Source: Burkholderiaceae bacterium (GTDB taxonomy: Bacteria > Pseudomonadota > Gammaproteobacteria > Burkholderiales > Burkholderiaceae_C). Taken from it: a stretch of DNA of 45,997 bases. A program made the translations under genes and the position numbers. Under the pieces are notes generated by a model, which was given only the letters and a program-made list of their open reading frames with translations, had not been told where the DNA came from and did not search any database. The DNA is taken from NCBI GenBank assembly GCA_014879745.1, contig JACSRM010000227.1:1-45997 (forward strand), in the 5' to 3' direction. This document shows positions 11,856 through 37,685 of the stretch, piece by piece. Within the stretch, counting starts at the first letter, position 1; the number at the start of each line of letters is the position of its first letter.

Positions 11856-12424
11856 GATCGGCTGCGATCGTTCTTGCGTTGCTGCTGGCCGGCAACGCCT
11901 TCGCCCACGGCGGCGAGGACCACGGCGACGGCGCTGCTGCCACGCCAGCCGCCGCGGTCGAAGCCGGCCCGCGCGCAACCGCCGCGAGCGAGGACTTCGA
12001 ACTCGTCGCGCTGCCGCAGGGCGACAAGCTGCTGATTTACCTCGACCGCTTCGCGACCAACGAGCCGGTTGCCGGCGCGACGATCGAGATCGAAAGCGGC
12101 GCGTTCAAGGCCGTCGCCGCTGCGGTCGGACCCGGGGTCTACGCGGTCACCGGCGACGCCTTCAAGACACCCGGCCGCCACGCGCTGACGATCACGATCG
12201 AGACCGACGCAAAGTCCGGCGGCATCTCCGATCTGCTGAGCGCGACGCTCGACGTTGCGGCGCCGAAGGCTGCCGGCGGCGATTCCGATATCCGCTCGCC
12301 GCTGGCCATCGCCGGCCTCGGTCCGACGACGCTGTCGCTCGTCGTCGCTGTCGTGCTGCTCGCGATCGGCGCGATCGCATGGCGCCGCCGCGCTCGCGCA
12401 GGCACCGAAGGACCGACGCCATGA
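11852..12424 (+). CDS. Secreted His-rich protein with C-terminal TM (efflux-operon accessory)
   Basis: [27 protein letters not shown]...; C-terminal TM; ATGA overlap with the adaptor gene. Confidence 0.7.
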   Translation: MRSAAIVLALLLAGNAFAHGGEDHGDGAAATPAAAVEAGPRATAASEDFELVALPQGDKLLIYLDRFATNEPVAGATIEIESGAFKAVAAAVGPGVYAVTGDAFKTPGRHALTITIETDAKSGGISDLLSATLDVAAPKAAGGDSDIRSPLAIAGLGPTTLSLVVAVVLLAIGAIAWRRRARAGTEGPTP

Positions 12425-13545
12425 GCAACAGCCTCGTACGGGCGACGCTGCTCGCCGCCGCACTGCTCGCCCCGCTGCTCGCCATCGCGCACGGCGACGA
12501 GGACCACGGGCCAAGCGAGGCCCCCGCCGCCGCAACGCTGCCGAGCGGCAGCGCGCCGCAGCGCCTGCCCGACGGCAGCGTCTTCGTGCCGAAGGCGGTG
12601 CAGCACCAGCTCGGCGTGCGAACCGAGCTTGCGACGCTCGGGCCGCTCGCGGCGTCGGTCGAACTCAACGGCCGCGTCGTCGCCGACCCTGCCGCGAGCG
12701 GCCTCGTGCAGGCAAGCCAGCCGGGCCGCATCGAGCCGCCGGCAGCCGGCCTGCCGACGCTCGGCCAGAGGGTCGCGCAGGGGCAGGTGCTGGCCTGGCT
12801 GCGGCCGGCGGCGAGCAGCATCGACATCGCGAACCAGCGCGCGCAACTCGCCGCGCTCGACGCCGAGGCCGCGCTTGCCGCCAAGCGTGTCGAACGCGTC
12901 GAGCAGCTCGAAGGCGCGCTGCCGCAAAAGGAGATCGACGCCGCGCGCGTCGAGCGCGCCGCGATCGACAAGCGCCGCGCCGCGGTGCGCGCGAGCGTCG
13001 ATCGCGCCGAAGCGCTGCGCGCGCCGGTGGCGGGCGTGATCAGCGCCGCGGCGGTGAGCGCCGGCCAGGTCGTCGATGCACGCGAGACGGTGTTCGAGGT
13101 CGTCGATCCGGCGCGCCTCGCGGTCGAGGCGCTCGCCTACGACCCGGCGCTCGCGCAGGGCATCACCAAGGCATCGGCCGCGCTGCCGGGCGGCGGCACG
13201 GCCAAGCTCGGCTTCGTCGGCGCCGGCCGCCAGTTGCGCGAGCAGGCGCTGCCGCTGCTGTTTCGCGTCGCCGCCGCCGACGCGCCGCTCGCCGTCGGCC
13301 AGCCGCTCGCGGTGACGGTGCAGACCGGCCGCAGCGTCGAAGGCGTCGCGCTGCCGCGCGCGGCGCTCGCTCGCAATGCGGCCGGCGACTGGATCGTCTG
13401 GCTGCACACCGGCGCCGAACAGTTCGCGCCGCGCAAGGTCGCGTTCCAGGCGCTCGACGCCGGCCGCGTCGCGGTCACCGCCGGTGTGCACGGCGGCGAC
13501 CGCGTCGTGACGCAGGGCGCGAGCCTGCTCGGCCAGGTCCGGTAG
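12421..13545 (+). CDS. HME-RND periplasmic adaptor (membrane fusion protein)
   Basis: HGDEDHG leader, LRPAASSIDIANQRAQL coiled coil, APVAGVISAAAVSAGQVVDARETVFEVVDPARL; stop codon lies in the MITE-like element TIR. Confidence 0.9.
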   Translation: MSNSLVRATLLAAALLAPLLAIAHGDEDHGPSEAPAAATLPSGSAPQRLPDGSVFVPKAVQHQLGVRTELATLGPLAASVELNGRVVADPAASGLVQASQPGRIEPPAAGLPTLGQRVAQGQVLAWLRPAASSIDIANQRAQLAALDAEAALAAKRVERVEQLEGALPQKEIDAARVERAAIDKRRAAVRASVDRAEALRAPVAGVISAAAVSAGQVVDARETVFEVVDPARLAVEALAYDPALAQGITKASAALPGGGTAKLGFVGAGRQLREQALPLLFRVAAADAPLAVGQPLAVTVQTGRSVEGVALPRAALARNAAGDWIVWLHTGAEQFAPRKVAFQALDAGRVAVTAGVHGGDRVVTQGASLLGQVR

Positions 13546-13810
13546 GGCCTGTTCACACTACGGGAAGAGACCGCGTTGTGACCAGGAATGCCGCAGGCAA
13601 GGCGCAAACCGCAGCCGGGTTGGACACCCGGCGAGGATTTGCAACGCCGCATGCGGCATTCCTGGCCGCAACCCGAAGGGAAGGCCCGCCGGCACGGGCC
13701 ACTTATCGTTGCATCGTTTGCCCGCACGTCAGTCCCGTCGGCGCGCTGCGCCTGGATTGGCCCGTGCCGGCGGGCCTTCGCGGCCCTTCCCGTAGTGTGA
13801 ACAGGCCCTA
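13543..13810. mobile_element. MITE-like non-autonomous element with perfect 25-bp terminal inverted repeats
   Basis: TAGGGCCTGTTCACACTACGGGAAG (13543-13567) / CTTCCCGTAGTGTGAACAGGCCCTA (13786-13810); internal perfect inverted repeats 13582-13595/13652-13665 and 13681-13701/13758-13778. Confidence 0.85.
13596..13651. repeat. Palindromic core repeat, copy 1
   Basis: GGCAAGGCGCAAACCGCAG-[CCGGGT..ACCCGG]-CGAGGATTTGCAACGCCGC. Confidence 0.75.
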
Positions 13811-13811
13811 A

Positions 13812-16800
13812 ATGTTCGAGGCGCTGATCCGCTTCAGCCTGCGCCAGCGCCAGCTGGTGCTGTGCGTTTCGCTGTTGCTCGTCGTCGCCGGTGGGTTGAC
13901 GGTGCGCCAGATGCCGGTCGATGTGTTCCCCGACCTCGACCGGCCGACGGTGACGCTGATGACCGAGGCCGGCGGCATGGCGCCGGAGGAAGTCGAGCAG
14001 CTCGTCAGCCTGCCGATCGAATCGGCGATGAACGGCATGCCGGGCGTGACGCGCGTGCGATCGGTATCGGGCGTCGGGCTGTCGATCGTCTACGTCGAGT
14101 TCGCCTGGGGCACGGACATCTACCGCAACCGCCAGCAGGTCAGCGAGCGGCTCAACCTCGTGCGCGAGCAGATACCGCCCGGCGTGCTGCCGCAGCTCGG
14201 GCCGATCTCGTCGATCATGGGCGAGATCCTGCTCATCGCGCTGCCGGCCGACCCGGCCAAGGCGAGCCCGATGCAGGTGCGCGAGTTCGCCGACTGGGTG
14301 CTGCGCCCGCGGCTCCTGACGATCCCCGGCATCGCTCAGGTGATCCCGATCGGCGGCGAAGTGCGGGAGTACCGCGTCGCGCTGCGTCCGGCGCAGCTGC
14401 AGGCGCTGGCCGTCGAGCGCGCCAAGCTCGACGCCGCGCTCGCCGATTTCGGCGCCAACACGAGCGGCGGCTTTCTCGAGGCGCAGGGCCGCGAGGTGCT
14501 GATCCGCCAGATCGGCCGCACGCACCGCATCGAGGATCTGCGCAACCTCGTCGTCGATGTGAAGAACGGCCAGCCGATATTGCTGTCGCAGCTCGCCGAC
14601 GTGACGATCGTCGCCGCCACCAAGCGCGGCGACGCGAGCTACAACGCCAAGCCCGCCGTCGTGCTGTCGGTGCAGAAGCAGCCCGGCGCCGACAGCGTGC
14701 GGCTCACGCGCGAGGTCGAGGCGGCAATCGCGTCGCTTGCGGCGAGCCTGCCGGCGGGGATGGAAAAGCCGCAGTTCCTCTTTCGCCAGGCCGACTTCAT
14801 CGAGCATTCGGTCGGCAACGTCGTCGAGGCGCTGCGCGACGGCGCGATCCTCGTCGCGATCGTGCTGTTCGCGTTCCTGCTCAACGTCCGCACGACGCTG
14901 ATCTCGCTGGCCGCGATTCCGGTCTCGCTGCTCGCGACGGCACTCGTCTTCCACGCCTTCGGCCTGTCGATCAACACGATGACGCTCGGCGGCCTCGCGA
15001 TCGCGATCGGCGAACTGGTCGACGACGCCGTCGTCGGCGTCGAGAACGTGCTGCGCCGCCTGAAGCTCAATCGCGCGCTGCCCGCGCCGAAGCCGGCGAT
15101 CGAGGTCATCGCGAAGGCGACGCTCGAGGTGCGCTCGGCGATCGTCTACGCGACGGTCATCATCGTCCTCGTCTTCGTGCCGCTCTTCGTGCTGCCGGGA
15201 ATCGAGGGGCGGCTCTTCACGCCGCTGGGCATCGCCTACATCGTCTCGATCCTCGCCAGCATGATCGTCTCGGTGACGCTGACGCCGGTGCTCGCCTACT
15301 ACCTGCTGCCGGGGATGAAGCGGCTCGATCATGGCGACGGCGCGCTCGTCGCCTGGCTCAAGCGGCTCGATGCGCGGCTGCTCCGCTGGTCGTTCGCGCA
15401 CTCGGGCAAGCTGCTCGCCGCCGCGCTCGCCGCCGTCGCCGTCGCGGCGGCCAGCATCGCCTTCTTCCCGCGCTCGTTCCTGCCGCCGTTCAACGAGGGC
15501 ACGCTGACGATCAACGTGCTGCTGAACCCGGGGAGCTCGCTTGCCGAATCGAACCGCGTCGGCACGCTCGCCGAGCAGCTCGCCGCCGCCGTGCCCGAGG
15601 TCACGCAGGTCGGCCGGCGCACCGGCCGCGCCGAACTCGACGAGCACGCCGAGGGCGTGCACTACACCGAGATGGACGTCGATCTGAAGCCGTCCGCGCG
15701 CAGCCGCGACGAGATCGTCGCCGACATCCGCAAGCGGCTGGCCGTGCTGCCGGCGGCGATCAGCATCGGCCAGCCGATCTCGCACCGGCTCGACCATTTG
15801 CTGTCGGGCGTGCGGGCGCAGATCGCGCTGAAACTCTACGGCGACGACCTCGACACGCTGCGCGGCCTGGCAGATGAACTGCGCGAGCGGCTGGCGGCAA
15901 TCCCCGGCATCACCGACCTGCAGATCGAGAAGCAGGTGCTGATCCCGCAGGTCAAGATCCGCGTCGACTACGACGCCGCGGCGCGCCACGGCGTCGCGCC
16001 CGGCGCGCTGCTGCGATCGCTCGAGCAGATGATCGACGGCGAGCGCATCACGCAGGTGATCGAGGGCAACCGCCGCTTCGACCTCGTCGTGCGTCTGCCC
16101 GACGCGGCGCGCGACGTCGACGCGCTCGCGAAGCTGCCGATAGCGACGCCGCTTGGCAGCGTGCCGCTCGCGCAGCTCGCGACGATCGACGACGGCGACG
16201 GGCCGAACCAGATCAGCCGCGAGAACGGCCGAAGGCGGATCGTCATCTCGGCCAACACCGACGGCAGCGACATGGCGAAGACGATCGCCGCGGTGCGCGC
16301 CGAGCTGGACGCCCGGCCGCTGCCGGAAGGCTACTTCACCGCGCTCGAAGGCCAGTTCCAGGCGCAGGAGGAAGCGTCGCGCCTGATCGCGCTGCTCGCA
16401 CTCGTCTCGCTCGCGCTGATCTTCCTCGTCCTCTACAGCCGCTACCGCTCTTCGACGCTCGCGCTCATCATCATGGGCAATATCCCGCTCGCGCTCGTCG
16501 GCAGCGTCGCCGCGCTGTGGATCTCGGGCCAGCCGCTGTCGGTCGCCGCGCTCGTCGGCTTCGTCACGCTCGCCGGCATCGCGACGCGCAACGGCATCCT
16601 GAAGATCAGCCACTACATCAACCTGTGCGCGTTCGAAGGCGAACGATTCGGCCAGCCGATGATCGTGCGCGGCTCGCTCGAGCGGCTGACTCCGGTGCTG
16701 ATGACGGCGCTCGTCGCCGCGTTCGCGCTCGTGCCGCTGCTGCTCGCGGCCGACGCGCCGGGCAAGGAAGTGCTGCACCCGGTCGCCGTCGTCATCTTCG

Positions 16801-16916
16801 GCGGGCTCGTCAGCTCGACACTGCTCGACAGCCTGCTCACGCCATTGATGTTCTGGCGCTGGGGCGAAAAGCCGCTCGCCCGCTTGCTTGCCGCGCACGA
16901 AGCGCAGAGTTTTTGA
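13812..16916 (+). CDS. Heavy-metal efflux RND permease (CusA/CzcA family)
   Basis: DVFPDLDRPTVTLMTEAGGMAPEEVEQLVSLPIESAMNG; 1034 aa; GELVDDAVVGVENV. Confidence 0.95.
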   Translation: MFEALIRFSLRQRQLVLCVSLLLVVAGGLTVRQMPVDVFPDLDRPTVTLMTEAGGMAPEEVEQLVSLPIESAMNGMPGVTRVRSVSGVGLSIVYVEFAWGTDIYRNRQQVSERLNLVREQIPPGVLPQLGPISSIMGEILLIALPADPAKASPMQVREFADWVLRPRLLTIPGIAQVIPIGGEVREYRVALRPAQLQALAVERAKLDAALADFGANTSGGFLEAQGREVLIRQIGRTHRIEDLRNLVVDVKNGQPILLSQLADVTIVAATKRGDASYNAKPAVVLSVQKQPGADSVRLTREVEAAIASLAASLPAGMEKPQFLFRQADFIEHSVGNVVEALRDGAILVAIVLFAFLLNVRTTLISLAAIPVSLLATALVFHAFGLSINTMTLGGLAIAIGELVDDAVVGVENVLRRLKLNRALPAPKPAIEVIAKATLEVRSAIVYATVIIVLVFVPLFVLPGIEGRLFTPLGIAYIVSILASMIVSVTLTPVLAYYLLPGMKRLDHGDGALVAWLKRLDARLLRWSFAHSGKLLAAALAAVAVAAASIAFFPRSFLPPFNEGTLTINVLLNPGSSLAESNRVGTLAEQLAAAVPEVTQVGRRTGRAELDEHAEGVHYTEMDVDLKPSARSRDEIVADIRKRLAVLPAAISIGQPISHRLDHLLSGVRAQIALKLYGDDLDTLRGLADELRERLAAIPGITDLQIEKQVLIPQVKIRVDYDAAARHGVAPGALLRSLEQMIDGERITQVIEGNRRFDLVVRLPDAARDVDALAKLPIATPLGSVPLAQLATIDDGDGPNQISRENGRRRIVISANTDGSDMAKTIAAVRAELDARPLPEGYFTALEGQFQAQEEASRLIALLALVSLALIFLVLYSRYRSSTLALIIMGNIPLALVGSVAALWISGQPLSVAALVGFVTLAGIATRNGILKISHYINLCAFEGERFGQPMIVRGSLERLTPVLMTALVAAFALVPLLLAADAPGKEVLHPVAVVIFGGLVSSTLLDSLLTPLMFWRWGEKPLARLLAAHEAQSF

Positions 16917-36028: not shown

Positions 36029-36234
36029 CAGTAACCCCGGATCCGGCAGTTGGACGCGCCCGAGCGGGCCGCCCTCGGGTGCGATAGCAAGGCGCAAACC
36101 GCAGCGATAGCACCCGCTATCGCGAGGATGTGCAACGCCGCGAGCGGACTCGAGGGCGGCTCGATCGGGTGCGCAGCGCTGTCACCCGGGCGATGGGCGT
36201 GGTCGTGGGAACGAATGACGACAGGCATGGACAT
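36028..36234 (-). CDS. Putative 68-aa single-TM small membrane protein
   Basis: MSMPVVIRSHDHAHRPGDSAAHPIEPPSSPLAALHILAIAGAIAAVCALLSHPRAARSGASNCRIRGY; TGATG overlap with downstream cytochrome b fusion. Confidence 0.45.
   Translation of the reverse strand: MSMPVVIRSHDHAHRPGDSAAHPIEPPSSPLAALHILAIAGAIAAVCALLSHPRAARSGASNCRIRGY
36087..36142. repeat. Palindromic core repeat, copy 2
   Basis: GCAAGGCGCAAACCGCAG-[CGATAGC ACCC GCTATCG]-CGAGGATGTGCAACGCCGC. Confidence 0.75.
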
Positions 36235-36254
36235 TTCCGGCGAGAGCGCAGCGG

Positions 36255-37685
36255 TCAGCTGCCGGACCCGGGGTCGGTCCTGCGCCGCAGCGCGCCGATG
36301 ACGACGACGACGAACAGCAGGCCGCCGACGATGGCGATCAGGCCGCCCAGCCCCATCAGCCCCATGCCGGCGATCTCGGCGCTGCTGCGCAGCACCTGCT
36401 CGGTACCGGCGACCTTGCGCTGCACGCCGTAGCCGCCCGACCAGACGAGGCCGACGATGTGCAGCAGCTGCCCGAAGCCGTAGAGCGCGGGCTGCCAGGT
36501 CGCGAGCCGGCCCTGCGGCGTGCCGTAACCCATGCGCGGCAGCAGGTGGTAGACGAGCCCCATCAGCGCGAGCGTGACGCCGACGATGCAGCCGTGGTAG
36601 TGCGCCGGGATGCGCACGTTGCTGCCGCTGATGAAGATGCCGATCACGCCGCCGGCGCCGAACAGCAGGACCGAGGCCACCAGCGCCGAGCGCAGCGGCC
36701 GCGCCTGCAGCGTCGCCGCCGGTGCGCCGGCAAGCGCGGCGACGACGGCGAGCGCGATCGGCACGATCGCGACCCCGCCGCCCAGGCGCATCGCCCAGGT
36801 CAGCGCGTCGCGGTGCTCGACCGACGCGATATCGTGCGCGAGGTAGGCATACGGCGTGACGAAGACGCTGACGAGCGCGAGCATGAACATCAGCAACGTG
36901 ACGCGCGGGCTGAGCGCGACGCGCGCGCCCGACGCCCCGGCGAGCCAGAGCCAGGCGACGAGCATCAGCAGCGTCCACGTGAACTGCAGCGCATGGCCGC
37001 CGCCCCAGAACAGGATCTCGTAGTACGCGCGGCCCTCGAGCGTGAGCGGCAGCACGGCGAACGACCAGCCGAAGGCGAGCAGCGCGACGGCGGTCGCGAC
37101 GACGCTCGCGTTCAGCCCGAAGCGCAGCGCGCCGCCGCCGTCGAAGCTCGCGCCCAGGCGCGGCGCGAGCCACAGCGAGCGCAGCACGAGCAGCGCGGTG
37201 CCGACCGCGAACAGCAGCAGCCCGCCGAGGAAGGCCGCGCCGTCGAGCACCGGGATGTAGTTGGCCATCACCGCCTCGCCGCTGCCGACGAAGGGCGCCA
37301 GCGACATCGCGAGCGCGCCGGCCGCGGCCAGGCCGAGCGCGGTCCACGCCAGACCGAGCGCGCGCGGCGCGCCGATCAGGCTCCACAGCAGGCCGGCGAT
37401 GGCAATGAACCAGACGAGGACCGAAAGATCGACGTGGACGACGAGCGCGACGCGAAAGAAGTCGGCGCTCGGCAGCAGCTTGTTGACCCCCGGCGTTCGC
37501 GCCAGCACGAGCAGGACCGAGAACACGCCGGACAGGACGAGCGCACCGAGACCGAGTGCGAGCCAGCCGCGCGCCAGGTCGCGGCGGGCGTCGGCCGGCA
37601 CCGCGAGCGTGTATTCGGTGTCGTGGCGCGCCTGCGGCAGCGCGGCTGCGCGCCCGGCGGGCACGGGGGCGAGGTGCGCGCTCAT
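36255..37685 (-). CDS. Divergent heme-copper oxidase subunit I homologue with atypical CuB site
   Basis: VVHVDLSVLVWF, FWGGGHALQFTW, IPAHYHGCIVGVTLALMGLVYHLLPRMGYG; no HH pair at the CuB position. Confidence 0.85.
   Translation of the reverse strand: MSAHLAPVPAGRAAALPQARHDTEYTLAVPADARRDLARGWLALGLGALVLSGVFSVLLVLARTPGVNKLLPSADFFRVALVVHVDLSVLVWFIAIAGLLWSLIGAPRALGLAWTALGLAAAGALAMSLAPFVGSGEAVMANYIPVLDGAAFLGGLLLFAVGTALLVLRSLWLAPRLGASFDGGGALRFGLNASVVATAVALLAFGWSFAVLPLTLEGRAYYEILFWGGGHALQFTWTLLMLVAWLWLAGASGARVALSPRVTLLMFMLALVSVFVTPYAYLAHDIASVEHRDALTWAMRLGGGVAIVPIALAVVAALAGAPAATLQARPLRSALVASVLLFGAGGVIGIFISGSNVRIPAHYHGCIVGVTLALMGLVYHLLPRMGYGTPQGRLATWQPALYGFGQLLHIVGLVWSGGYGVQRKVAGTEQVLRSSAEIAGMGLMGLGGLIAIVGGLLFVVVVIGALRRRTDPGSGS

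Follow-up and report, generated by a model that had tools for sequence, protein, structure and literature searches.

What is the 268-bp palindrome that lies between the adaptor and pump genes of a metal-export operon, and how did it come to stand exactly there? The window, by which we mean the whole stretch of 45,997 nucleotides analysed here (contig JACSRM010000227.1 of a Burkholderiaceae bacterium), opens at positions 1-65 with a tRNA gene truncated by the contig start and carries a copper/silver-type export locus of the Cus/Czc-like RND kind. One strand of this locus encodes a CusS-type kinase and a response regulator, the opposite strand a DUF411 protein, a TolC-like channel, an HlyD/CusB-type adaptor, a CusA/CzcA-family pump and a copper P-type ATPase. 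A previous sequence-only reading had described the palindrome as a MITE-like insertion and had remarked that other genes of the operon overlap by ATGA; such an overlap is indeed found at 12421-12424, and the adaptor therefore probably starts at 12421. The features of the junction are as follows.

12421 to 13545, + strand: adaptor gene, HlyD/CusB-type; probable start at the ATGA overlap, stop codon formed by the element
13543 to 13810, + strand: whole element, a palindromic MITE folding into a three-way junction (cloverleaf); from a 29-copy alignment, consensus fold, full-length relatives and nine empty junctions
13543 to 13567, + strand: left terminal inverted repeat; its first bases are the target TA, and the adaptor takes its TAG stop from it
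13680 to 13779, + strand: second arm with a perfect 22-bp outer stem; from inverted-repeat search and consensus fold
13786 to 13810, - strand: right terminal inverted repeat; its last bases are the target TA
13812 to 16916, + strand: pump gene, an intact CusA/CzcA-family RND permease (TIGR00914 above cut-off; ACR_tran)

A cloverleaf element inserted into a stop codon

The element is bounded by perfect 25-bp terminal repeats at 13543-13567 and 13786-13810, as had been proposed, with ends reading TAGGGCCTGTTCACACTA; the window contains two such end motifs, where 0.11 would be expected. Of the inner inverted repeats, the second pair (13680-13701/13758-13779) is perfect as claimed, but spans 22 bp instead of the 21 bp originally given, while the first arm (13572-13598/13649-13675) shows 85% complementarity across 27 nt. 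The suggested multi-arm structure is borne out both by folding and by comparison: as single-stranded DNA the element forms a three-way junction of -115.5 kcal/mol, compared with -60.5 +/- 3.6 kcal/mol for shuffles (z -15), and 60 of the 99 predicted pairs carry two-sided changes among 29 copies. The adaptor ends in CGG-TAG, with TAG being bases 1-3 of the element, and the ATG of the pump at 13812 follows one base past its end, both as first noted. At the element the stem is followed by AATGTTCG, without a T run, and the element is therefore not an intrinsic terminator.

The sense orientation relative to the operon and the position exactly between two genes could speak for a regulatory RNA native to the copper operon rather than for an insertion. 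We rejected this candidate on the strength of empty sites in relatives, a comparison that the earlier reading had called for. The same adaptor-pump gene pair was found by ortholog searches in many genomes, and all nine orthologous junctions examined are free of the element, with 4 to 15 bp from adaptor stop to pump start; one of them adjoins an 89%-identical pump of the same genus (genome G003). As, in addition, other copies of the element lie in unrelated places, a native origin is extremely improbable. Joining the flanks through a single TA yields CGG-TAA-ATG, which would approximate the pre-insertion sequence of this strain, so the element appears to sit in the native stop codon, re-created as TAG.

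Full-length relatives of 67-84% identity are present in genomes G003, G034, G011, G017, G013 and G009, while the draft genome of the host itself holds the window element as its single full-length copy, next to many more matches of the first arm only. The search for an IS with the same ends was likewise successful. An IS of about 830 bp in G034 (locus L047), a genus other than that of the host, contains DUF4096 and DDE_Tnp_1 reading frames and begins with TAGGGCCTGTTAACACTA; compared by eye, its right end and a MITE end from G034 share 22 of 23 bases. The proposed TA target holds as well: TA stands on both sides, and TA-flanked copies prefer C before and G after it (YTAR-like), the C-TA-G preference expected together with an IS5-type transposase behind the same ends. 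The element has inverted terminal repeats and, at 268 bp, no room for a transposase gene; the empty junctions, the relatives and the matching IS end identify it as a non-autonomous MITE that targets TA. In itself it is thus an IS5-type MITE, a known kind, and the enzyme of L047 presumably mobilises it.

Genome G001 contains solo palindromes of about 50 bp (L082, about 985-1032; L086, near 956 on the minus strand), TAGGGCCTGTTCACACTACGGAGACCCGATGCGTAGTGCGAACAGGCCCTA, each made up of a pair of window-family ends that enclose next to nothing; these are possibly minimal transposable units. One-ended relics of the window MITE type immediately follow one and the same gene in two species (L083, about 1450, G000:C275; L085, near 805, G004:C247), each with a GC hairpin; they may represent an old shared insertion, reused as a gene end.

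A hairpin core shared between elements with different ends

The first arm of the element forms a hairpin whose core, AAACCGCAGC-stem-GCGAGGATTT, is conserved, and the part common to the elements reads AAGGCGC-AAACCGCAGC-stem-GCGAGGATTT-GCAACGCC. Core-related features of the window are listed below.

13580 to 13666, + strand: first core hairpin; covariance model R1, E 7.5e-24, 88.6 bits
13606 to 13640, + strand: heart of the core, AAACCGCAGC-CGGGTTGGACACCCG-GCGAGGATTT; exact pattern match, with conserved internal loop and bulges
13705 to 13755, - strand: divergent second core, inverted, CCAGGCGCAGCG...GATGCAACGAT; a degenerate copy that passes only a slightly looser pattern
36034 to 36274, + strand: second core-bearing palindromic element, ends CGG(A/G)TCCGGCAG; R1 match at 36070-36157, 74.3 bits

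Across 66 divergent copies, 21 of the 27 core pairs show two-sided changes. The apical and lower stems vary with compensation, and the C-G pair below the upper loop has become G-C on both sides in some copies, while the bulges and internal loops remain constant and are the most conserved positions. In delta MAGs the heart is exact and the lower stem quite different. The covariance model R1, built from 66 cores without any Neisseria sequence, finds matches at 21 places in the genome of the host, in 34 of 185 genomes of its class, in 44 of 299 of a phylum sample, where a family that looks like Zetaproteobacteria dominates, and in 25 of 150 of another family. Copy numbers can be high, with at least 71 exact-motif cores in the 2.7 Mb of genome G029 (taken as Tibeticola sediminis).

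In the genome searches, the first-arm-only matches sit in palindromic elements with other ends, and already within the window the ends of the element at 36034-36274 differ from those of the element at 13543-13810. Altogether the same core is found between at least 15 different terminal repeats in several proteobacterial classes, based on greedy clustering of TA-bounded ends into 23 clusters, about six of which reflect internal TA positions and were set aside on visual inspection (single-linkage clustering over-merged the ends and was replaced). A hairpin common to differently ended mobile elements suggests a shared RNA function. Rfam 15 contains no family that matches at the gathering score, and at permissive thresholds only miRNA and sRNA models below threshold came up. 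Spacer-pattern hits in Butyrivibrio, Poribacteria, Allorhizobium and most viral contigs were dismissed as chance, as the apical stem is absent. Two contigs catalogued as viral in IMG/VR (L239 and L243) do carry genuine core-bearing MITEs, and phages or prophages may thus serve as vehicles for the elements.

The second arm holds a divergent core of its own. A CAAGGCG...CAACGCC motif in opposite orientation is present there in 24 of 29 aligned copies of about 270 bp, allowing at most one mismatch per end, a threshold that about 2% of shuffles pass; in L029 the second arm is plainly a core, CTAGGCGCGAACCGCAGC, and inverted second cores also occur in elements with other ends. Read from these alignments, the class of about 270 bp is one that carries two oppositely oriented cores. 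In one copy (L069, genome G017) the second arm is inverted relative to the other 28, with ends and first core unchanged, and appears as if flipped within the element.

Is the core selected as RNA?

If the core were under DNA symmetry alone, G.T and A.C mismatches should be equally frequent in its stems. On the core strand we count 163 G.T against 63 A.C, with 28 against 6 groups among 43 divergent groups, which may share ancestry within an end type. A second count on the same strand gives 156 G.A against 45 C.T, whereas GG+TT and CC+AA do not differ (77 versus 58), and for 53 of 68 lower stems the core-strand RNA is the more stable form. From this excess the core strand appears, on statistical grounds, to be maintained as RNA; in the window element it is the sense strand of the operon. 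The second core considered by itself shows no significant strand bias (14 versus 6).

What would such an RNA be for? One scenario, to which we give somewhat less than an even chance, is that of a mobile RNA module: an ancient hairpin with conserved bulges, spread over much of the Proteobacteria by MITEs of many transposase specificities, whose RNA would bind a conserved host factor. Insertions would then be tolerable or even useful because of this interaction, the double-core elements could work either way round, and Correia elements, perhaps also BRE, would be local branches. A purely selfish history is an unlikely explanation, in which one ancestral palindrome changed its ends for new transposases and had its hairpin kept by templated repair, with no core function beyond transposition. 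In its favour, all ends look IS5-like with TA/YTAR targets, and stems are known to be rendered perfect by quasi-palindrome correction, a well-established route of mutation. Yet templated repair should also erase bulges, and these are the most conserved positions; the 20-nt heart is kept while the flanks fall below 55% identity, and the one-strand excess of G.U and G.A is left without a reason.

Alternatively, the core could work at the DNA level, where a transposition or replication factor would bind it as a single-strand or cruciform hairpin, in the way that tyrosine transposases bind their REP hairpins. A conserved hairpin with extrahelical bases would fit such a role, G.T is the best mismatch in single-stranded DNA as well, and we see no bias of core orientation relative to neighbouring genes. 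A DDE transposon with symmetric ends, however, needs no strand-specific DNA signal, and we regard a DNA role as rather improbable. On balance, our preferred reading, which we consider reasonably probable, joins three parts: an IS5-type MITE, a widespread core kept as RNA, and a coupling within the operon that the cloverleaf would preserve. If the core is indeed shared phylum-wide and selected as RNA on one strand, the elements carry a functional RNA part, the partner of which can be sought in harmless hosts with many copies, such as Tibeticola sediminis, and this would help to explain how dense palindromic insertions are tolerated inside operons.

A possible effect on adaptor-pump coupling

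That the insertion alters the coupling of adaptor and pump, as was suspected from the outset, is plausible from modelling. Upstream of the pump ATG there is a single Shine-Dalgarno-like run, and it forms part of the terminal stem.

13802 to 13805, + strand: CAGG, the Shine-Dalgarno-like run of the pump, base-paired within the terminal stem

In RNA folding over 400 nt, which ignores co-transcriptional folding, opening the ribosome site of the pump costs 15.3 kcal/mol with the element and 3.5 kcal/mol in the empty site; the cost falls to 4.9 kcal/mol once the 5' strand of the stem is occupied by a ribosome terminating at the TAG. In the scenario we envisage, an IS5-type (DUF4096/DDE_Tnp_1) transposase would have mobilised the MITE into the TA of the adaptor's TAA stop. 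The long duplex of the operon transcript would be a likely substrate of RNase III, as published for NEMIS transcripts (PMC2649163, PMC10969869). Folding into the cloverleaf would bring the pump start beside the adaptor stop, with the terminal stem locking the pump ribosome-binding site until a ribosome terminating at the TAG melts the outer stem and re-exposes it. As the palindrome would re-adjoin the two genes, translational coupling could thus survive the 268-nt insert.

Relation to known elements

With ends that match an IS5-type IS (L047), a TA/YTAR target and no transposase gene, the element resembles other IS5-family MITEs. These usually share their interior within one end type, though, whereas the present core spans many. 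Like REPINs (PMC3116915), it combines two oppositely oriented hairpins in a single mobile element; it differs in its long, TA-bounded terminal repeats, those of a DDE element, and in the sequence of the hairpin.

BRE is a repeat of about 75-91 bp in Bordetella, Polaromonas, Delftia and Acidovorax, one copy of which yields an 80-nt RNA on Northern blots, and for which, in contrast to the present core, no shared end types have been described (PMC3110155). An 85-nt variant of our core lies at 1501-1585 in L334, L335, L337, L338 and L340, flanked by TAGCGAGCG...GCGCAGTA; it has a conserved upper loop and forms single intergenic copies in a genus many of whose genomes measure 5-6 Mb. This variant may be the Bordetella BRE repeat (PMC3110155).

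The closest likeness is to the Correia (CREE/NEMIS) elements, also short palindromic MITEs with TA ends, in which the core blocks CAAGGCG, CCGCAG, GCGAGG and CAACGCC follow in the same order. To our knowledge, these have been regarded as a Neisseria peculiarity for decades, with a core that lacked an explanation. CREE are described as Neisseria-only (PMC2649163, PMC5039591), their transcripts are cut by RNase III and, like the window element, one CREE adjoins an RND pump operon, mtrCDE (PMC2649163, PMC10969869). The core of the window element matches that of Correia elements, but the element lacks the 26-bp Correia terminal repeat (TATAGTGGATTAA...), and its ends being unlike that repeat, we do not file it as a CREE. 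It differs further in its length (268 bp against about 106 or 155 bp), its two inverted cores, its other middle stem and its host outside Neisseria.

Neither the core nor the end sequences turned up in a search of the literature, and in the CC-licensed PMC set, with few subscription journals, we found no MITE core shared outside Neisseria, BRE being the nearest lead; a core shared across end types and apparently selected as RNA, and the placement of Correia elements that it permits, go beyond the literature found there. A CREE-specific pattern search led to Neisseria-like genomes with up to 166 matches to the Correia-type core, the number reached in the 2.8 Mb of genome G604. R1 recovers the 106-bp CREE of such genomes with scores of 30-31 bits (E about 1e-7 in 24 kb). 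Despite this modest score and a dissimilar middle stem, Correia/NEMIS elements are probably the best-known branch of a core superfamily, related to the element in the copper operon by common descent of the core.
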